Shown: positions 22,415 to 34,251 of the stretch, piece after piece
Layout: each line of letters opens with the position of its first letter
How positions within the stretch are numbered: the stretch's first letter is position 1
DNA from: Dulcicalothrix desertica PCC 7102
GTDB taxonomy: Bacteria; Cyanobacteriota; Cyanobacteriia; Cyanobacteriales; Nostocaceae
Assembly (NCBI RefSeq): GCF_003991905.1
Contig: NZ_RSCL01000017.1
Span: 124,001-188,000 of the forward strand
Direction of reading: 5' to 3'
Length of the DNA: 64,000 bases
The notes under the pieces: generated by a model
Database searches by the model: none
Seen by the model: the letters and a program-made list of their open reading frames with translations, nothing else
Told to the model about the DNA's origin: nothing
Translations under genes and position numbers: made by a program

Positions 22415-22624
22415 ATGAGAATTAGCGCACGCAATACTTTAAAAGCAAAAGTTAAAAAAATTATACCAGGCTCTGTGAACTCAGAGGTAATTTTAGAAAT
22501 ATCAGAAGGTATAGAAGTAACAGCAATTATTACTAAGGATGCCGTACAATCACTTAATTTGACTGAAGGCGCCGATGCTTATGCCGTTGTAAAATCTACC
22601 GATGTCATGGTAGCCGTTGATTAG
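22415..22624 (+). CDS. Mop-domain molybdate-binding protein (molbindin)
   Basis: The 69-residue protein is a single Mop/TOBE domain: MRISARNTLKAKVKKI, GSVNSEVILEI, VTAIITKDAVQSLNL and AYAVVKSTDVMVA. Such proteins form hexamers that store or buffer molybdate or tungstate. A second Mop domain, fused to a DNA-binding domain, is encoded convergently just downstream, and a NifE/NifN-like pair is 1.5 kb away. The group points to molybdenum-linked biology. Confidence 0.88.
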   Translation: MRISARNTLKAKVKKIIPGSVNSEVILEISEGIEVTAIITKDAVQSLNLTEGADAYAVVKSTDVMVAVD

Positions 22625-22629
22625 TTAAA

Positions 22630-22661
22630 AGAAACCGGGTTTCTTAAAAAACCCGGTTTCT
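22630..22661. terminator. Bidirectional hairpin made from two GAAACCxGGTTTC repeats
   Basis: AGAAACCGGGTTT and AAACCCGGTTTCT form a perfect 13-bp stem with a 6-base loop. It lies between the convergent Mop genes, five bases after one stop and four bases before the other, so it can terminate both. Confidence 0.8.
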
Positions 22662-22665
22662 AACC

Positions 22666-23127
22666 TTACTCGCTAGCAATCACTATATCTGTAGATTTAA
22701 TCACAGCGTAAGCTTCTTTACCTATATCAAGTTCCAATTCATCTGCTGAGACTCTAGTAATTACAGAGGTGAGTTTGACTTTATGCACAACTTCTAGCGT
22801 CACCTCACTATTAACTGGCCCATTTTTAACTTCAGTCACGACACCTTTAAGGAGGTTGCGTGAGCTAACTTTGAGCGGTTTCTTTTTAATGCTAGCTTCT
22901 ATGAAAGATACATTTGTATCTATTGGCTTTTCTTGAGTTGGTATACGTATCTCTGATTCGTACTCGGTTGGTATAGGCGATTGTGAAGATTTATCGGTTA
23001 AATTACGTAGTAACTCACGCAGCACCTCTGTTTTAGTACGCTGAGACGAGTGACAGAACTCCTCTAAGATTTTCCGCTCGTCTTCAGATGTTTGGAATGT
23101 TATCCATCCTTGTTCTTTTCTTGGCAT
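22666..23127 (-). CDS. Ribbon-helix-helix/Mop fusion, putative molybdate-responsive regulator
   Basis: The 153-residue protein starts with a short ribbon-helix-helix-like region (WITFQTSEDERKILEEFCHS, then TKTEVLRELLRNL). A ~35-residue linker follows, and residues ~85-152 form a Mop domain (VSSRNLLKGVVTEV, GPVNSEVTLEVV, AYAVIKSTDIVIASE) close in sequence to the neighbouring molbindin. The classical molybdate regulator ModE couples a winged helix to Mop domains; here the DNA-binding part would be RHH instead. Two strong dyads lie directly upstream and are the probable autoregulatory operator. Confidence 0.75.
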   Translation of the reverse strand: MPRKEQGWITFQTSEDERKILEEFCHSSQRTKTEVLRELLRNLTDKSSQSPIPTEYESEIRIPTQEKPIDTNVSFIEASIKKKPLKVSSRNLLKGVVTEVKNGPVNSEVTLEVVHKVKLTSVITRVSADELELDIGKEAYAVIKSTDIVIASE

Positions 23128-23132
23128 AGTTC

Positions 23133-23179
23133 TACCAAATTAATTGGTAAATGGGTTAAAAGTTGGTAATACATTACCA
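23133..23179. promoter_or_regulatory. Double dyad upstream of the RHH-Mop gene, putative operator
   Basis: TACCAA-N5-TTGGTA lies at 23133-23149, six bases before the start codon. TGGTAAT-AC-ATTACCA, a perfect 7-bp inverted repeat, lies at 23164-23179. Both are built from TTGGTA/TACCAA half sites, as expected for RHH dimers binding side by side. The remaining ~280 bases to the Crp gene hold no clear gene. Confidence 0.6.
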
Positions 23180-23461
23180 CACTATCTTACTTACGTCAGT
23201 GGCGCCCACTGTAAAGGTGCCATGACGGAAATTAAGGCAGTATTTAAAGATTGTATGAAGGTTTGGTTAAAATTTTCTATAAAAACAGTGAAGAAACGTA
23301 GATTAATGATTTATTTATTTTTATGAATATGAAATTTATATAAACACAATGTATAAAAATCATGTTTGTATTGGATTGCCCTATAGTCAGTATTAGAATG
23401 TGGAGTAGCTAATGATACTTGTCTTTATGTTACTTTAATAACTAATAATCTGGTATTTCTT

Positions 23462-24040
23462 ATGAATAAGGCTGTAGCGATAACAAATATGAATAACTCC
23501 ATATCCACATCTACTCATATTCAGCACCGCACTCTTGAACGGCGCCAATTAATACCTGAGCAGGAGCGAGTGCTATGGAAAATTCAAAGGGGAAGTGTGC
23601 GTGCGTTGACCTGGGATGAAAACGGAGTTTATACGACTTTGGGTTACTGGGGAGTTGGTGATATTGTTGGTTATTCGCTATCGCGTGTTCAACCTTATCA
23701 TCTTGAATGCATTAGTGGTGTAGAGCTAGCTAGCATTCCATCTGAAAAATTACACGAAAACTTAGACCAACTTTTATCGCGTATTCAACGAACTGAAGAA
23801 TTAGTAAGTATCGTTAACAGTAAACGTGTCTCTACCCGCATATGGCAATTTTTAATCTGGTTAAGCGATAAATTTAGCCGTGATTTAGAAGATGGTAAAT
23901 TAATTGATTTGCACATTACTCATCAAGAAATAGCCGATGTGTTAAATACGACTCGTGTTACGGTTACACGTGTATTGCGAGATTTAGAGGACGAAGGTAA
24001 ATTAAGGCGCCATAAGCGCTGGTTAATCATAAGTGCGTAA
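23462..24040 (+). CDS. Crp/Fnr-family transcription regulator
   Basis: The 192-residue protein has a short cyclic-nucleotide-binding-like beta barrel (residues ~25-105, including VLWKIQRGSVRALTW and GVGDIVGYSL) and a C-terminal winged helix (ITHQEIADVLNTTRVTVTRVLRDLEDEGKL). No Cys cluster for an Fe-S centre is visible, so it is not an Fnr-type oxygen sensor. It ends 14 bases from the convergent NifN-like gene, which suggests but does not prove a regulatory link to that operon. Confidence 0.88.
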   Translation: MNKAVAITNMNNSISTSTHIQHRTLERRQLIPEQERVLWKIQRGSVRALTWDENGVYTTLGYWGVGDIVGYSLSRVQPYHLECISGVELASIPSEKLHENLDQLLSRIQRTEELVSIVNSKRVSTRIWQFLIWLSDKFSRDLEDGKLIDLHITHQEIADVLNTTRVTVTRVLRDLEDEGKLRRHKRWLIISA

Positions 24041-24054
24041 ATAAAATATAACCA

Positions 24055-25365
24055 TCAGAGTGCATTTATTTCATTCGCGATATCAAATAAATACTGCATG
24101 GCGCCTCGATAACCAAGTTTGGTTGAGAAAATATTGCCCAAACGGTCAAAAATTGGAATTCCTTGATGATATATAGGAATACTTAAACGTTTTGCAATTG
24201 CCGAAGCATTGGAGTTAGCGATTAATAAATCTGAACCTGCGGCTAGTTGCTCAAAATCTTCTAAGTCACCAATAGTAACGCTTTGAATTGGTATTTTTTC
24301 GAGCAGTGGAGAGCGTCCAGTTGTCACTGCTGCATGAATAGATACTCCCATTGATTGCAGAAAATCAATAGTCAACCAAAGTAAATCAGGTTCTAACGCT
24401 ACAGAAACTTTTTTACAACTCAGCTTAAGGTGCGTAAACAACATTGCTTGCTGTAACTGGCGCCTATAAACTCGGTATTTTTCGGGTACAGCATTACCGC
24501 TAATTTTGAAGAGCGCGTACAAGAGTTTATCTGTAGCATCAAGTCCAACAAATTCTGTGAATACATCGTAAGGAACTTTGAATCTTTGTTGTAATATCCT
24601 CGCACTAGAGCGCATACTTTCACCCAGTGCCAAAGTGAAGCTAGAATTGCCAACTAATTGTAATCGTTCTAAAGTTGTGCCGCTACGAGTGACTGCACGA
24701 TTTAACGTACTATTATTAGTACTATCAAAATTATTAAAATCTATATCAAGTAAACCCGATAAGTCTGGTAGAACAATTGGGTCTAATTCAAAATCAAAAC
24801 ACATTTCCTTGATTTGTTGAATATCACCAGGTGTGAAAGCAGAACTAGCTAAAATTGTTATTTGTTTTGACTGCGTATTTGGTTTGCTGACTGTGGGAAT
24901 TTCCTTAACAATGCTCTCCACTCCTGCCGCATAGCCATCTTGTAAGCTACCTTTAAAATCTGGCGTAGATACCAAAACCATCGGTAAATTATTTAATTCT
25001 GGAATTTGGCGAATTTCTTTTAAAAAACGCGCCATATCATCCCCTCTGGTTTCGGTGAGTCCAGTTGTACAAAGACCCAGAATTTCCGGCTGATGCTGCT
25101 GTACTAACGAGATAATCGCTTGTTTAATGTTTTCCTCACAACCCAAAACGGTAACAACTTCAGTCATCCCTGTTGTCGAAAGAGGAATTATTTCACCCAA
25201 ATGTTGGGTTAAAGGTATTTGTGCGAACGTGCTACAACCAGGTGAACCATGTAGTACAGGCATTACTCCAGCAAACCCCATAAATGCTAAAGTGGCGCCT
25301 ACTGCTTGACTATGTTTAAAGGGGTTTACTGCTACCGACGTATTTGTGATGCTTACAATTGCCAT
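24055..25365 (-). CDS. nifN: NifN-like nitrogenase cofactor scaffold protein
   Basis: The 436-residue protein has the NifN signature at its N-terminus: VNPFKHSQAVGATLAFMGF, LHGSPGCSTFAQ with the cluster-binding Cys, and LSTTGMTEVVTVLG. LGLCTTGLTETRGDD and LVSTPDFKGSLQDGY follow. In diazotrophs NifN pairs with NifE as the scaffold on which FeMo-co is built. It lies 31 bases after the NifE-like gene on the same strand. No nifHDK, nifB or nifX is in the window, so this may be a second or an alternative-nitrogenase copy. Confidence 0.82.
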   Translation of the reverse strand: MAIVSITNTSVAVNPFKHSQAVGATLAFMGFAGVMPVLHGSPGCSTFAQIPLTQHLGEIIPLSTTGMTEVVTVLGCEENIKQAIISLVQQHQPEILGLCTTGLTETRGDDMARFLKEIRQIPELNNLPMVLVSTPDFKGSLQDGYAAGVESIVKEIPTVSKPNTQSKQITILASSAFTPGDIQQIKEMCFDFELDPIVLPDLSGLLDIDFNNFDSTNNSTLNRAVTRSGTTLERLQLVGNSSFTLALGESMRSSARILQQRFKVPYDVFTEFVGLDATDKLLYALFKISGNAVPEKYRVYRRQLQQAMLFTHLKLSCKKVSVALEPDLLWLTIDFLQSMGVSIHAAVTTGRSPLLEKIPIQSVTIGDLEDFEQLAAGSDLLIANSNASAIAKRLSIPIYHQGIPIFDRLGNIFSTKLGYRGAMQYLFDIANEINAL

Positions 25366-25396
25366 GATGATTAATTTAGAAAATAAAAATTACTTA

Positions 25397-26680
25397 TTAC
25401 CAAGGCGCCGATGTATTTAATTGCTTCCAAACAGTGCTTTTAAAAGCTGTATATAATTCTTGTGCAGCTTTGATTATTCCTGTATATCCTGCATAAGTAG
25501 ATTGATGATGATTATTGAGGAAAGAGATTTGTGCTTGAATCGCGATAGATTGATAATTGTATGGCGCCACTAACATATCTACTTCCTTCTCTTGAATTAT
25601 TTGTAAGACTTGATTTTTCTCATTTCCTTTATTTAAAATAATTACCTCTTGATTGAGTAATTGTGTAATTTTTGCTTTATTTTCTTCATTGAGATGCTCG
25701 GCAATAGGAATAATATCTAAATTGAGAATTTTAGCTGTAGAGATAATTGACAAGTTTCCACTTGTAACATCAATGATAATTCTCTTATTTTTTATATAGG
25801 AACGATATAAATCCAATTGGTAATTTAGATTATTAATTTGTGCTGTGATTAAATTTTCGGTTCGTTCTTTTAAGTCAGCGTCTAGTTTGAGTGCAATATT
25901 TATTAAACAGTTGTTAATTTCTTCTAAACTGTGTAAAGATTCTTCAATATAATCAATTCCATAGCGCTTTTGCATTTGCTTTGCTAATTTCAGCAGTGCT
26001 TTAGAGGATATAACCACATTCAGTTTTGCACGGTGTGCTTGAGCTATTTGTTTATATTGACTATTGCCTGCAATTTTTGCTAATACTCGAATTCCTATTT
26101 TTTCCAATAACGATTCAATTTCAACGGCGCCATCATCAAAGCTATCGCCAATCAAGTTAATATCATAATTGGTAGTAAATTCTGGTTCGACAGTACCGAT
26201 AACGTGTTCGAGTAAAATATCACCAGCAAGACGAATACCTGAATTTTTGTTACCAACAAAACCTGGTGAATCTATAGGGATAACAGGAATACTTAATTTT
26301 TCTGCTGCGTCGTGTGCGGCGCCGTTAATATCATCACCAATCATAGCAGAAACGCAGGTAGAATATACAAATATTGCTTTAGGATTATAGCGACGATGAA
26401 CTTCTAAAATTGCTTTGTATAACTTTTTGGCGCCACCAAAAATAATATCACTTTCTTCCATATCGGTAGTAAAGCGAATTTTATTAAGAATTGCAGCATC
26501 ATTACTACCAGACAAAAAAGAACCAACGCAACCGCTCGAACCATGAACTAAATGAGCAGCGTCTGCAATAGGCACTAAAGCCATCATTGCCCCATCAAAA
26601 GCACAATCTTGTTGATTTCGCTGTGCTAGTGATTTTTGCCCATCAGAAAAGCTTTCGATTTTATCGTGACTTGCTTCCAT
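25397..26680 (-). CDS. nifE: Divergent NifE-like scaffold protein
   Basis: The 427-residue product is shorter than typical NifE (about 450-480), mainly because the N-terminal arm is short. It keeps the three Cys that hold the shared cluster (QQDCAFDGAMMALVPIADAA, HGSSGC, VYSTCVSAMIGDD), FTTDMEESDIIFGGAKKLYKAI and the C-terminal PVWEQ..APW-like end (VWKQLNTSAPW). The stretch that in NifE reads CISGD with a Cys for the cofactor precursor reads AKIAGN here, and the later GGRSQ-like motif reads APYNYQS. These changes suggest a divergent role or substrate. It is the first gene of the pair. Confidence 0.8.
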   Translation of the reverse strand: MEASHDKIESFSDGQKSLAQRNQQDCAFDGAMMALVPIADAAHLVHGSSGCVGSFLSGSNDAAILNKIRFTTDMEESDIIFGGAKKLYKAILEVHRRYNPKAIFVYSTCVSAMIGDDINGAAHDAAEKLSIPVIPIDSPGFVGNKNSGIRLAGDILLEHVIGTVEPEFTTNYDINLIGDSFDDGAVEIESLLEKIGIRVLAKIAGNSQYKQIAQAHRAKLNVVISSKALLKLAKQMQKRYGIDYIEESLHSLEEINNCLINIALKLDADLKERTENLITAQINNLNYQLDLYRSYIKNKRIIIDVTSGNLSIISTAKILNLDIIPIAEHLNEENKAKITQLLNQEVIILNKGNEKNQVLQIIQEKEVDMLVAPYNYQSIAIQAQISFLNNHHQSTYAGYTGIIKAAQELYTAFKSTVWKQLNTSAPW

Positions 26681-27008
26681 TTTAGCCGTGATAGGGTAGA
26701 TTTATCGCAATTCATAATAAAATAAAAACTATAAATATTGTGTTATTTATGTTCTTTATAAAATTTTCACTTTGTATCTAAATTAATCTTCTCTTGTGGA
26801 GCGGGCATCCCTGCCCGCCTCCCAATCCCTAAACTACATAAGTAATCATACTGAGGTAAGTATTTTCAATACTTTGCTAGATTTTACTAACATACCAAGC
26901 CTTAAAAATTACTTACAACTTGATTCATTTGTAATTTTTAATACAAAATAAGTATAAAAACTTAGGAAAAATTATATACAACTAGTAAGGTGGGAGCAAA
27001 ATATTTTT
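26681..27008. promoter_or_regulatory. Divergent promoter region of nifE-like and Rieske genes
   Basis: A perfect 7-3-7 inverted repeat, AAGTATT-TTC-AATACTT, lies at 26858-26874 between the divergent genes and is a candidate operator. A hairpin repeat GCGGGCA-TCCC-TGCCCGC lies near 26803-26820. I do not see a canonical NtcA site (GTA-N8-TAC). No RNA gene is visible. Confidence 0.5.
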
Positions 27009-28028
27009 ATGTTAGTAACAAAGCAACCAGTATTAAAACGTTTTTGGTATCCTGTTATTCCCAAGAGTCATTTATCAGATGGTCATCCTAAACCATTTAC
27101 GCTATTGGGTCAAAAAATAGTCCTTTGGCTAGATGCCAAAGGGCGCCCAGGAGCAGCGCAAGACCGTTGTTGTCACCGTTCCGCGCAGCTATCGAAAGGA
27201 AAGGTTACAAACGGTAATATAGAATGTCCATATCATGGTTGGAGGTTTGATAGTGCAGGAACTTGTACACATGTACCCCAACTGCAAGATGGAATGATAT
27301 CACCTAGTTATAAAATAGGCGCCTATAACTGTGTAGAACGGTATGGTTATATTTGGGTATGTTTAGAGGAACCATTGTGCGATATTCCAGATATACCAGA
27401 AGCTAAAGACTCTAAATATCGTTTAATTCAAGAATTTTATGAACCTTGGAAGTGTGCAGGTTTGCGAGTGATGGAAAATGAGTTTGATACCGCACACCCA
27501 ACGTTTGTACACACAACAACTTTTGGTAGCGAAGAACATCCGATTCCCGATAAAATGCAATTGCAAGAACACGAGTGGGGAATTGATTTTTGGACGGTGC
27601 TAGGAGTAACAAACCCCAAGCTACAGCAAGAAAATTTGAAAATAGAGCAAAACCAGGTAGTGCGAACAATGCATATGACTTGGTACATGCCATTTACTGC
27701 CCAACTGCGTATAGGTTATCCTAACGGCTTAGTTCATATAGTCGTCAATACAGCCACACCAATCGACGATTCGACTTCTCAAATAGTACAATTTTGTTTA
27801 CGTAACGACACCGAAGCCGAAACAAAAGCAGAAAATATCGTAGCTTTTGACCGTGCAGTTACGCTTGAAGATAAAGTCATTTTGGAAACAACCGACTACA
27901 ACGTACCGCTTGATATCACCAAAGAACAGCATATGATGACCGATAAACCCGGCATTTTGATGCGTCGCAAGTTTTCGACGCTGCTAAAAACTTATGGAGA
28001 AGTTGAGTGTTGTGGCTATAATAGTTAA
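27009..28028 (+). CDS. Rieske non-heme iron oxygenase, alpha subunit type
   Basis: The 339-residue protein has an N-terminal Rieske [2Fe-2S] domain (CCHRSAQLSKG with Cys-x-His, then CPYHGWRFD with Cys-x2-His) and a catalytic domain with the mononuclear iron site E-x-D-x2-H-x4-H (NEFDTAHPTFVH). All ligands are present, so it should be an active oxygenase that needs an external reductase. The substrate is unknown. It is divergent from the NifE-like gene, and a second Rieske gene, now broken, lies further downstream. Confidence 0.88.
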   Translation: MLVTKQPVLKRFWYPVIPKSHLSDGHPKPFTLLGQKIVLWLDAKGRPGAAQDRCCHRSAQLSKGKVTNGNIECPYHGWRFDSAGTCTHVPQLQDGMISPSYKIGAYNCVERYGYIWVCLEEPLCDIPDIPEAKDSKYRLIQEFYEPWKCAGLRVMENEFDTAHPTFVHTTTFGSEEHPIPDKMQLQEHEWGIDFWTVLGVTNPKLQQENLKIEQNQVVRTMHMTWYMPFTAQLRIGYPNGLVHIVVNTATPIDDSTSQIVQFCLRNDTEAETKAENIVAFDRAVTLEDKVILETTDYNVPLDITKEQHMMTDKPGILMRRKFSTLLKTYGEVECCGYNS

Positions 28029-28052
28029 TACGAAATGAGCGTGCAAATAATT

Positions 28053-28340
28053 ATGCTAAATATTGGTAGTGATATTAATTCTCTCTCAAGCTTTAAACAG
28101 AACACCGTAGAATTTATTGAACAGTTACGGGAGACAGGAGAGCCAATGGTATTGACCGTTGACGGAAAAGCTGAAGTTGTAGTACAAGATGTAAAGTCTT
28201 ATCAGAAGCTTCTGGAGCTTGTGGAAAGATTTGAGACAATAGAAGCTGTTGAGGTCGCACTTCAACAAATGAGAGCAGGTGAAGGAGAACCAGTAGATAA
28301 AGCATTTAAGGAAATAATTGAATCGTTGGATGAAGAATGA
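28053..28340 (+). CDS. Phd/YefM-family antitoxin
   Basis: The ~95-residue protein has the typical Phd/YefM start: SDINSLSSFKQNTVEFIEQL, ETGEPMVLTVDGKAEVVVQD and VKSYQKLLELVER. The N-terminal part binds the operator and the C-terminal helix neutralises the toxin. Its stop overlaps the start of the toxin gene by four bases. The ATG at 28053 is preferred, but the frame is open from 28035. Confidence 0.85.
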   Translation: MLNIGSDINSLSSFKQNTVEFIEQLRETGEPMVLTVDGKAEVVVQDVKSYQKLLELVERFETIEAVEVALQQMRAGEGEPVDKAFKEIIESLDEE

Positions 28341-28711
28341 AATATCAAGTTATTATCCTTCCAGCAGCGAAAGTTGATATCAAACAAGCTGCAAAATGGA
28401 TTCGTCAAAATAACTCGCCTGAAAAGGCAAAATTATGGGTCAGGGAAGTAAACGACGCGATTCTCACGCTTGATACATTTCCAGCCAGGTGTGCATTAGC
28501 TTCAATTGATAATGCTTTTGAAGAAGAAATAAGGCAACTGCTTTTTGGAAAGGGCAAGAATACATATCGTGTTTTCTTTACGATTCAAGACACACTTGTT
28601 ATCATTCTTCGTGTTCTCTATACCGCACGAGATATAGAAGCAGAATTTGAAGCTTTTATAGATACTCAGATTAAGCTTGAAAACACAGTCATCTGTAACT
28701 ACACTACCTAG
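28337..28711 (+). CDS. RelE/ParE-family toxin
   Basis: The 124-residue protein has the RelE/ParE pattern: VIILPAAKVDIKQAAKWI, then FPARCALA, EIRQLLFGKGKNTYRVFFTI and VIILRVLYTARD. It is translationally coupled to the Phd-like antitoxin gene through an ATGA overlap. ParE-type members target gyrase and RelE-type members cut mRNA; the sequence alone does not tell which applies here. Confidence 0.85.
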   Translation: MKYQVIILPAAKVDIKQAAKWIRQNNSPEKAKLWVREVNDAILTLDTFPARCALASIDNAFEEEIRQLLFGKGKNTYRVFFTIQDTLVIILRVLYTARDIEAEFEAFIDTQIKLENTVICNYTT

Positions 28712-31720: not shown

Positions 31721-33799
31721 CTATTCAGATTTGACTGGTACGCGGCGGATTTTTTCACGTAAAGTTTCTAAAACTTCGGGTGTAACTATATACCACCAAG
31801 GACTTTTATCCTTTTCTTGAAAACCCTGGATAATTCCTTTTTCTCGCCAGTAGTGAATGGTATAAATACTAACGCCCAATTTTGATGCTAGGGCACTGGT
31901 GGAATAGTAACCTTCTGGGCTAATCCCAGATTTCGCAACCATTGGGGCGCTTAAAGGTTTATCAAGACCATATTTCCATCTCAGCCAAGCTACACCTTTT
32001 CTGGTAAAAGGTTGCCCAGTAGTATTGAGTAAACCCCGACGATTTAGTTCCAAAGCAATTTCGGCATCAGTTCGACCAGGAACTAATTCTTCAATCAATT
32101 GAATCACTTGGTTGGGTGTTCGGTATTTTTCTGTAGTTGTTGGACGTGTAGCAATTAGCTCGCTTATCGCTCCAGTATGCCAAAGTATTTGGATACGAGT
32201 AGAGCGTTTTGGAGCATCTATTGGTGTAATCGCAACTTGTTTGACTAACAACCCTAGCATCTCTTTACGCTCTTGGTGAGTAGTACTACTTGCGTGCCAA
32301 ATTGTTGGAATATCATTGGCTAATTGTAATATTTGTTGCCTTTGGGTTAGAGTCAATTCCAACCTTTCTACTTGGTGCGCTCTATTATACGCTTCTTCTA
32401 ATTCTGTTAACTGTTGTAATTTTTCATTCCAACGTTTTTCTAGTGTACGGGCGACTAAACGATTCTCTGGCTCAGTAGCATCATATTGTCGGAAGGCTCT
32501 ATCTGCTTCGTAATGTGCCCTTTCTAACCTAAGTTGCCATGTTTTATCCGCCTCATGTGCTTGATGCTCAAGCTCTCTAAGCACAGCTAGAGAAATATTG
32601 AGTTGTTCAAGAGTTAAAGCTTCAAGTACGTGTGCCTCAACCGCTGTATCAATTGCTGCCCCCGCAACGCTCCAACAAACACCCACGCTACCATCTTGTT
32701 TTCGAGCTTGTGTACATTCGTAAGCCACTCTCTTGCCACCATCACCGTGGTAGCGAGGACTCATACGCCGTCCGCATTTACCACAAATAACTAAACCTTG
32801 AAGAAGAGCAAAACCCTCTCTAGGTGTTCTTTGGCATCCATCAGATATATAACCTGTGTTATTGCGTCTGAGTTGCTCACAATTAGATAAATATTCAGAC
32901 CAACTAATATAAGGCTCGTGAGCGTCATGGATTACAACTTTCCACTCGTCTTGTGGTAGTAGCTGGGTTTTTACCTTGGTTATTTGTCCATTCTCAATTA
33001 CGTTTAGACTGCGCCGTCTACCATATACGTAAGTCCCCGTATAAGTTGGGTTACGTAAAATTGCTGTTATACGGCTAAGGTTAGCTGGTCCCCAATAAAG
33101 TGTGCCTATGTGACCAGGTCGCCAGCGCCTTCTTGGAAAAGGAATTTGGTTGATACAAAAATAGCGCATCACCTTAAACGCTGTTCCAAGAGCATGGAAT
33201 TTTTGGAAAACTAGCTTTATCGCTGCAACTACACCTTCGTCTGGGTCTAGCACTAATTTTCCTTCTGGGTCGTATACATAGCCAGTAGGCGGAGAACAGC
33301 GCAATTCCCCTTTTTTGGCCTTATTTAGTTTGGCGCCTTGTAAGCGTAAACGCATACCATGTAGTTCCGTGTGGCTCCAAGTTCCCTTAAACCCTAATAT
33401 TACTCGGTCATTAAAATCATTCGGGTCGTAAATTCCATCGTGGTCAATTACTAACGTATCTGTTAGGGCACAAATATCTAATAGTTTATGCCAATCTGCT
33501 TGCGAACGAGAAAATCTTGAAGCTTCCAAAGCTAAAACAGCCCCGACTTCTCCTAAACCAACAGCAGCCATTAGTTTATGAAAATCTTCCCGTCCTGTTG
33601 TTGTTTGACCACTTTTACCTAGGTCACTATCTAAAACGGATATTTGGCTTTTGTCCCAGCCCAAGTTTAACGCGCGGTCAGCCAAAGCATACTGTCTTTC
33701 TGTACTTTCACGGTGTAATTCTATTTGGTTAGGTGTTGATTGTCTTAAGTACACTACCGCGCGCCGTTCCAGATGCGTTGTTCTTATTTTACTATTCAT
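31721..33799 (-). CDS. Large serine recombinase
   Basis: The ~692-residue protein has an N-terminal resolvase/invertase domain with the catalytic Ser in AVVYLRQSTPNQIE and Arg residues in LEASRFSRSQADW. It is followed by a recombinase domain (SPPTGYVYDPEGKLVLD, ILRNPTYTGTYVYGRRR), a zinc ribbon (CGKCGRRMSPRYHGDGG, then C in YECTQARK), a coiled-coil region and a C-terminal MerR-like helix-turn-helix (STSALASKLGVSIYTIHYW). It is the integrase of the surrounding element. The ATG at 33799 is preferred; the frame is open to 33817. Confidence 0.92.
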   Translation of the reverse strand: MNSKIRTTHLERRAVVYLRQSTPNQIELHRESTERQYALADRALNLGWDKSQISVLDSDLGKSGQTTTGREDFHKLMAAVGLGEVGAVLALEASRFSRSQADWHKLLDICALTDTLVIDHDGIYDPNDFNDRVILGFKGTWSHTELHGMRLRLQGAKLNKAKKGELRCSPPTGYVYDPEGKLVLDPDEGVVAAIKLVFQKFHALGTAFKVMRYFCINQIPFPRRRWRPGHIGTLYWGPANLSRITAILRNPTYTGTYVYGRRRSLNVIENGQITKVKTQLLPQDEWKVVIHDAHEPYISWSEYLSNCEQLRRNNTGYISDGCQRTPREGFALLQGLVICGKCGRRMSPRYHGDGGKRVAYECTQARKQDGSVGVCWSVAGAAIDTAVEAHVLEALTLEQLNISLAVLRELEHQAHEADKTWQLRLERAHYEADRAFRQYDATEPENRLVARTLEKRWNEKLQQLTELEEAYNRAHQVERLELTLTQRQQILQLANDIPTIWHASSTTHQERKEMLGLLVKQVAITPIDAPKRSTRIQILWHTGAISELIATRPTTTEKYRTPNQVIQLIEELVPGRTDAEIALELNRRGLLNTTGQPFTRKGVAWLRWKYGLDKPLSAPMVAKSGISPEGYYSTSALASKLGVSIYTIHYWREKGIIQGFQEKDKSPWWYIVTPEVLETLREKIRRVPVKSE

Positions 33800-33804
33800 C
33801 TGGT

Positions 33805-34251
33805 TTACTCCTTGCAACTACCTCGTCGGAACTTTGGTTTCTGAGCATCTTGTCCACTAACCGTGCTGTTAGAAGAGTTAGACGACCCAGCCTTTCTGAG
33901 TTTTCGGGTTTTTGGGTTGGTAGATATTTCACCATGATTTTTTTCTATGTGTTCGACTCCTTCATTTTCGGCAACACAAGAAAATTCTTCCGTAAAATAT
34001 TTTTTACGCTCTCCTACCCATTCACTCAAACGCAGCAGTTTTTGTGGTGAAAATTTCTCAGTTCGTTGGGTAATGCTTGCTTGTTGCATCCATAAGTCAG
34101 TTTCTGAAGCTGGAAGAGACAAAAATCCTCCCAATGGACTTTTTATAGTGACTTTTGTCTCTTGCCCAACTTTGCGGATTTGCAGTATCTCAACAAACTG
34201 ACCATACAACGGGTGGATGGGGTTGGTGATTGTCACACAACTTCCCTTCAT
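33805..34251 (-). CDS. Accessory protein encoded upstream of the serine recombinase
   Basis: From the ATG at 34251 this is about 148 residues. The N-terminal half is a small beta-rich domain (SCVTITNPIHPLYGQFVEIL, VTIKSPLGGFLSLPASETDL). The C-terminal half is basic and Ser-rich. The gene ends a few bases before the recombinase ATG, so they are coupled. Similar small genes sit upstream of this recombinase family in other cyanobacteria; a recombination directionality or DNA-binding role is only a guess. Confidence 0.65.
   Translation of the reverse strand: MKGSCVTITNPIHPLYGQFVEILQIRKVGQETKVTIKSPLGGFLSLPASETDLWMQQASITQRTEKFSPQKLLRLSEWVGERKKYFTEEFSCVAENEGVEHIEKNHGEISTNPKTRKLRKAGSSNSSNSTVSGQDAQKPKFRRGSCKE

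Follow-up and report, generated by a model that had tools for sequence, protein, structure and literature searches.

Three cysteines of NifE from Azotobacter vinelandii (C15, C25 and C250) are described as ligands or putative ligands of NifB-co in the accessible part of a 2026 paper on NifENX (PMC13128457). C15 and C25 lie in an N-terminal receiving loop and C250 in an inner cavity of the protein, and the replacement C250A abolishes formation of the iron-molybdenum cofactor (FeMo-co). In Anabaena variabilis, VnfR1 and VnfR2 are molybdenum-dependent repressors and the vnfR2 promoter serves vnfH, according to the portion of PMC4284476 available to us. NifEN-like proteins without FeMo-co ligands, encoded behind NifH, are reported from Clostridium and Alkaliphilus in the consulted part of PMC3464626. 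Here, we analyze a NifE/NifN-like gene pair, E2 and N2, from a stretch of 64,000 nucleotides of Dulcicalothrix desertica PCC 7102 (contig NZ_RSCL01000017.1, positions 124,001 to 188,000; the whole stretch is referred to as the window). The pair belongs to a NifEN paralogue clade of heterocyst-forming cyanobacteria, here named E'N'; it has kept the cysteines shared by NifEN proteins and is without the three known ligands of NifB-co.

The original prediction, made from the letters of the window, held that a NifE/NifN-like pair is encoded here, and this was borne out by the family models. N2, an open reading frame (ORF) of 436 aa, scored 479.6 bits against the nifN model TIGR01285 and passed its cut-off of 326.8. 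E2 (427 aa) scored 394.1 bits against the nifE model TIGR01283 and failed the cut-off of 505.1; nifE was the best single-subunit model for E2, and the models for dark-operative protochlorophyllide oxidoreductase (DPOR) gave 54–60 bits. An AlphaFold model of E2 alone (mean predicted local distance difference test score, pLDDT, of 78.6, poor at the N-terminus) was used only to confirm the fold, and its closest solved folds were NifEN chains. E2 and N2 are 50% and 59% identical to the host's standard pair, and E2 is shorter than the standard NifE (427 vs 476 aa), as had been predicted.

The cysteines of the shared [4Fe-4S] set of NifEN, i.e. the equivalents of A. vinelandii NifE C37, C62 and C124 together with NifN C44, are all present in E2N2, in line with what had been noted before; in E2 these are Cys26, Cys51 and Cys109, and with Cys44 of N2 we take them to be the [4Fe-4S] ligands of the pair. 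They are conserved throughout the clade: C62 and C124 were kept in 38 out of 38 E' rows of the alignment (30 operon-linked, one cut by a contig end and seven from Calothrix), C37 in all 37 rows that reach it, and C44 in 28 out of 28 N' rows. C250, which falls in a CSKA motif in the alignment numbering, is a cysteine in all standard (29/29), nifX-linked (2/2) and proteobacterial (3/3) rows and in A. vinelandii, and is lost in all 38 E' rows. The position is occupied by Ser in the seven Calothrix rows (Ser225 in E2), in 25 of the 30 operon-linked rows (the others have F, F, A, P and D) and in the contig-cut row. At least two cysteines precede C37 in each of the 31 standard and nifX-linked rows; the four proteobacterial and A. 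vinelandii rows have two in three cases and one in the fourth. No cysteine precedes C37 in any of the seven Calothrix rows or in 28 of the 31 other E' rows (one cut before that part), and a single one is found in the other three.

Other parts of the protein were also affected. The GGRNQ stretch is lost (the position of A. vinelandii G400 is P in six and R in one of the seven Calothrix rows), which agrees with the predicted loss of a GGRSQ-like motif, and the RG-loop positions are changed in E2 as judged from the alignment. The E' rows have fixed G61, R83, A99, R111 and G135 at 97–100%, residues that are rare in the other rows. The non-E' rows have 147 conserved columns; 84 of these are retained by 80% or more of the Calothrix rows and 81 by 90% or more of the other E' rows. 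The original prediction had also stated that the cofactor-site cysteine was lost from E2, reading AKIAGN where CISGD is expected. The loss as such was confirmed through C250 and the N-terminus, but the residue named was the wrong one. The CISGD cysteine corresponds to A. vinelandii C226, and because standard cyanobacterial NifE has S, A or G at this place (29 out of 29 rows), the change is no sign of divergence and the argument was set aside; the accessible part of PMC13128457 does not list C226 as a cofactor ligand.

The ratio of nonsynonymous to synonymous substitutions (dN/dS) was calculated for the window genes against six Calothrix orthologues; it was 0.25–0.36 for E2 and 0.10–0.15 for N2, with no inner stop in either, and 0.065–0.066 for standard nifE (two pairs). 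These values show, at the level of the coding sequences, that E2 and N2 are both maintained under purifying selection in Calothrix, E2 less tightly than N2.

A scan of GTDB contigs yielded 13 loci, six of which, from Calothrix, hold close orthologues (63–94% identity for E2 and 76–97% for N2); E2 was found in all seven genomes of the genus examined. Relatives at a greater distance (about 50% identity) are encoded directly behind a NifH gene, usually with a VnfR-type regulator gene before it where the stretch was long enough. For the NifE trees a partial copy (L001) was dropped and identical sequences were counted once; the NifN tree and counts exclude 27 rows without an assigned neighbour. In a 68-row NifE tree a branch with support 100/99 separates the 29 standard and two nifX-linked rows from the rest. 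The seven Calothrix E2 rows group together (100/100) within the operon-linked set, with Calothrix brevissima NIES-22 as their neighbour (95/89). In a quick tree of 73 rows, with three proteobacterial rows and A. vinelandii as the root, the 38 E' rows form one clade (Shimodaira-Hasegawa-like approximate likelihood ratio test support of 100) nested within cyanobacterial NifE, the nesting forks having support of 68–96. The NifN quick tree, rooted on a single distant row, likewise places 21 operon-linked and seven Calothrix rows in one clade (98) inside cyanobacterial NifN. The trees thus show E'N' as having arisen once, from cyanobacterial NifEN, with the Calothrix pair as one branch. A third type of NifE was seen at L054:14598-16040 and L129:14960-16375, beside nifX near vnf genes; it has kept the equivalents of C15 and C250.

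The host genome (11.42 Mb in 109 contigs; closest named relatives in Calothrix) has matches to PF00148 at nine places. The standard pair is located on contig C5 (nifE, 476 aa and 679.4 bits; nifN, 439 aa and 616.8 bits), and two matches on C14 and C16 look like ChlN/ChlB by length and place, not by family model. The check for a second nifEN proposed along with the prediction was thus positive, and the window pair falls in a paralogue clade of its own within cyanobacterial NifEN. The absence of nifHDK near the pair was also confirmed: the contig of the window has no PF00148 match besides the pair and no PF00142 match. A search for VNFD at 1e-150 gave no match in the host or in any of the seven genus genomes, and matched 22 out of 217 genomes of the family. 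A putative vanadate-transport protein, named by its place and taken from L129, had no match in the host genome in a search made without a positive control. Since standard nifEN is present and VNFD has no match, this pair counts as an extra nifEN, and the genome has no detectable vanadium nitrogenase.

Some of the standard nif genes of the host look fragmented. Three C5 segments (285341-285664, 350117-351196 and 439785-440954) resemble a split nifK and a shortened nifD, as would result from excision elements, a survey of which is given in PMC4874684 (seen in part). Standard nifH is in three pieces (L093:2355-2780, L094:11905-12264 and G000:C16:62158-62238), two of which adjoin recombinase-like genes, identified by eye and by a weak match; the standard nifE of G427 was seen as two pieces about 10 kb apart. 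The NifH' gene on contig C35 is the only unbroken nifH-type match in the host genome.

Gene contexts were compared between 20 E' loci (11–20 kb, several cut by contig ends) and 20 standard nifE loci (10–20 kb). NifH lies directly upstream of E' in 20 out of 20 cases; VnfR was found at 19 of these loci, N' at 16, ModA/ModB at seven, Mop at six and nifX at two. The standard loci had nifX in 19 cases, Mop in 13, a NifH match in five, VnfR in one and ModA/ModB in none. Four of these five NifH matches were 86–87% identical and are probably standard nifH; the fifth (91%) lies beside VnfR. The link of E' with ModA/ModB is modest, as three of the seven matches are only 30–36% identical and three come from one genus. 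On a plasmid of Nostoc sp. C057, modB, modA, two Mop genes and modD come within 14 kb after nifH, nifE, nifN and a gene for a VnfR-type regulator. Mere nearness to Mop was rejected as evidence, as standard nif loci show it more often.

VnfR, which consists of a helix-turn-helix and a PBP_like domain, was detected in 117 of the 217 family genomes: in 21 of the 22 genomes that have VNFD and in 96 of the 195 that lack it. It is thus not confined to genomes with vanadium nitrogenase. Of 30 genomes with E' behind NifH, mostly best-scoring ones and not a random sample, ten have VNFD and 20 do not. A second vnfDG-type fusion was noticed at L089:10307-12355 and L095:12980-15016, next to genes for NifH, a VnfR-type protein and (by eye) a NifV-like protein; no nifK-type match was present in the fetched stretches around either fusion.

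In Calothrix the pair lies apart from this unit. Contig C35 of the host carries an unbroken NifH' (324 aa) together with VnfR (L087:8499-9660), the latter read in two overlapping frames where four relatives have a single frame of 386 aa; no E' or N' match was found beside them. In NIES-4105, NifH' is followed by an E' fragment of 75 residues that is 65% identical to E2. This fragment and the absence of E' and N' on C35 point to a probable transfer or copying of the pair into the Rieske/Mop block, with decay of the old copy. NifH' was found in six of the seven genus genomes.

The reading we favour, tentatively and with a probability of about 0.45, is that E'N' belongs to the FeMo-cofactor pathway as a module fed by NifH and linked to molybdenum scarcity, and has given up the known way of holding NifB-co. 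By analogy with A. variabilis, the unit of VnfR-type regulator, NifH', E' and N' would be switched on as molybdate runs out. In E'N' the NifEN fold and the intersubunit [4Fe-4S] site are retained, and the three known NifB-co ligands have been dropped. A NifH-type reductase, in the host most likely NifH' of C35, would dock on E2N2, and electrons would pass via the [4Fe-4S] cluster into a cavity in which NifB-co is no longer clamped. When molybdenum is scarce, the complex would act in the FeMo-cofactor pathway, for example by priming molybdate or homocitrate, and would not be a catalytic alternative nitrogenase. The response to molybdenum scarcity, the docking of NifH and the electron transfer are what we infer; the reaction, including the priming of molybdate or homocitrate, is a guess.

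Several observations weigh against this reading. The Calothrix pair is next to neither NifH' nor VnfR and the host VnfR is in two frames, so that molybdenum control can only be presumed for E2N2 itself. In one Calothrix genome with E2N2 (G426) no clear NifH' was found; the sole match was one of 87% in a frame of 268 codons. In four genomes of one genus (VnfR-NifH'-E' units L155, L156, L158 and L160) E' has no N' beside it, and may pair with standard NifN. Mop genes are commoner near standard nif than near E' loci, some of which are cut by contig ends. E2 has a higher dN/dS than standard nifE, which relaxation would also produce. Its stem in the NifE tree is long (0.58), as is the NIES-22 branch, and the exact sister of the Calothrix E2 may thus be misplaced. 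Position C15 is Ser in one of the three proteobacterial NifE rows, and the N-terminal cysteine pair is therefore not strictly universal outside cyanobacteria. An A. vinelandii strain without the N-terminal site was able to fix N2, though with a lag, as stated in the accessible part of PMC13128457.

This last result also suits the view that E'N' is an ordinary low-molybdenum spare copy that still matures FeMo-cofactor, NifB-co being held by other residues. The NifEN chains found as closest folds, the 84 conserved columns kept in Calothrix and the nifN score of N2 agree with it; we nevertheless consider it unlikely, since C250, the replacement of which inactivates FeMo-co formation in A. vinelandii, is lost from every E' row, the GGRNQ and RG-loop positions are changed, and nifX accompanies E' at only two of 20 loci versus 19 of 20 for standard nifE. 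A nitrogenase-like complex with a different cofactor or substrate, as suggested earlier, agrees with the loss of the NifB-co ligands. In this line it is conceivable, though we lean to it less than to the favoured reading, that E'N' and NifH' are a new nitrogenase-like two-component system, born from a cofactor maturase in heterocyst-forming cyanobacteria, in which the bare NifEN cavity and the [4Fe-4S] cluster, without NifB-co, reduce molybdate, homocitrate or another small molecule under molybdenum scarcity. A two-component reductase comparable to DPOR or CfbCD, with NifH' as electron donor and a substrate from outside cofactor synthesis, seems rather doubtful. It would account for the pattern of kept and lost cysteines, for the NifH gene at all 20 E' loci and for the newly fixed residues, and would have a parallel in the proteins of Clostridium and Alkaliphilus (PMC3464626, consulted part). 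On the other hand, no recurring metabolic pathway gene was recognised beside E'N' in the loci examined, and the pair is separate from NifH' in Calothrix. Because the regulator is of the molybdenum-responsive type and molybdenum-transport or molybdenum-binding genes lie near some copies, a role in the FeMo-cofactor pathway is favoured over an unrelated substrate, by a small difference.

A protein that ties up NifH, NifN or NifX to stop cofactor synthesis in the absence of molybdenum could explain a fold kept without cluster ligands, and the E' genes lacking an adjoining N' suggest another partner for E'; the tight constraint on N2 and the four fixed [4Fe-4S] cysteines are not needed by such a decoy, which makes this explanation improbable. 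Still less credible is a leftover VnfEN scaffold of a lost vanadium nitrogenase. VnfR and NifH' do belong to the vnf region of A. variabilis (known from part of the published account) and of the similar genome G529, and a third of the 30 E' genomes checked have VNFD. The VnfE and VnfN of G529, encoded behind vnfK, are, however, distant, with about 26% identity to their best references and 176 and 137 bits on the nifE model; VNFD has no match in the other 20 genomes or in the seven genus genomes at 1e-150, and the pair is under purifying selection. VnfEN identity was rejected on similarity and model scores, not on a joint tree, and on the missing VNFD; the suggested scaffold of an alternative nitrogenase is not supported. 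These readings partly overlap, and their weights do not have to add up to one.

The coordinates of the features are collected in Table 1.

Table 1. Features of the E2N2 locus, in positions of the window.
Feature	Positions	Strand	Basis
E2, NifE-like, 427 aa, first gene of the pair	25397..26680	-	ORF, nifE model, trees, fold
N2, NifN-like, 436 aa, 31 bases downstream of E2	24055..25365	-	ORF, nifN model, tree
E2 Ser225, at the place of essential A. vinelandii NifE Cys250	26006..26008	-	alignment; essentiality from PMC13128457 (accessible part)
E2 Cys26 (A. vinelandii C37), kept	26603..26605	-	alignment
E2 Cys51 (A. vinelandii C62), kept	26528..26530	-	alignment
E2 Cys109 (A. vinelandii C124), kept	26354..26356	-	alignment
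N2 Cys44, kept	25234..25236	-	28/28 N' rows
E2 short N-terminus before Cys26, 25 residues, no Cys; A. vinelandii C15/C25 receiving pair missing	26606..26680	-	
GTAN8TAC palindrome, divergent E2/Rieske intergenic region	26931..26944	no strand	
Rieske [2Fe-2S] oxygenase, 339 aa, divergent from E2	27009..28028	+	Pfam
Crp/Fnr-type regulator, 192 aa	23462..24040	+	Pfam: C-terminal helix-turn-helix only
153-aa protein, C-terminal Mop/TOBE domain	22666..23127	-	TIGR00638, Pfam
69-aa Mop (molbindin-type) protein	22415..22624	+	TIGR00638, Pfam

The predicted neighbourhood of a Crp-type regulator and a Rieske protein was found as described. The Rieske gene adjoins E2 in all seven Calothrix loci, the window included. 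Among the six other loci the 69-aa Mop gene was present in six, and the genes for the Crp-type regulator and the 153-aa Mop protein in five each; five loci share the complete block of Rieske, E2, N2, Crp, 153-aa Mop and 69-aa Mop, and the C42_A2020_038 locus has Rieske, E2, N2 and the small Mop. The two Mop proteins of the window scored 78.0 and 71.1 bits against TIGR00638, in agreement with the prediction; the DNA-binding domain assigned to the 153-aa protein was not recovered, as Pfam reports TOBE only, and a DNA-binding N-terminus is a guess. The palindrome between E2 and the Rieske gene, presumably an NtcA-type site by its consensus, was present in seven out of seven Calothrix loci, five of them near-identical, in a count made without a chance estimate. 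Directly behind the Rieske gene (28035-28711) lie genes for a Phd/YefM antitoxin and a ParE-type toxin, and positions 31721-33817 encode a large serine recombinase made up of a resolvase, a recombinase and a zinc-ribbon domain (all by Pfam).

No description of a cyanobacterial E'N' clade was recognised among the papers listed in searches on a second cyanobacterial nifEN, on its molybdenum control or on NifE without Cys250, which does not show its absence from print. Genome surveys that use nifE and nifN as markers may count E'N' genes. Compared with the known systems, the E'N' unit shares the regulator and NifH families with the VnfR2-vnfH unit of A. variabilis. The layout of G529 matches the published A. 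variabilis vnf region; there E'N' has decayed, N' being seen only as relics behind NifH, whereas in Calothrix the pair stands apart from the VnfR/NifH' unit. VnfEN belongs to the same superfamily as E2N2, but its sequences are distant and it is encoded behind vnfK. The Clostridium and Alkaliphilus proteins resemble E'N' in their place behind NifH and their reported lack of FeMo-co ligands; they differ in phylum and in a NifN-like part reported to be without conserved cysteines, a likeness drawn by description only (PMC3464626, in part). With the NifEN maturase E2N2 has the fold, the subunit pair and the four [4Fe-4S] cysteines in common; it differs in the three known NifB-co ligands, in the GGRNQ stretch and RG loop, in the score of E2 below the nifE cut-off and in having no nifX beside it. 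Overall, E'N' would represent a natural separation of the electron-transfer part of NifEN from the part that holds the cofactor, and thereby a testable case of a change of function in a nitrogenase assembly protein.

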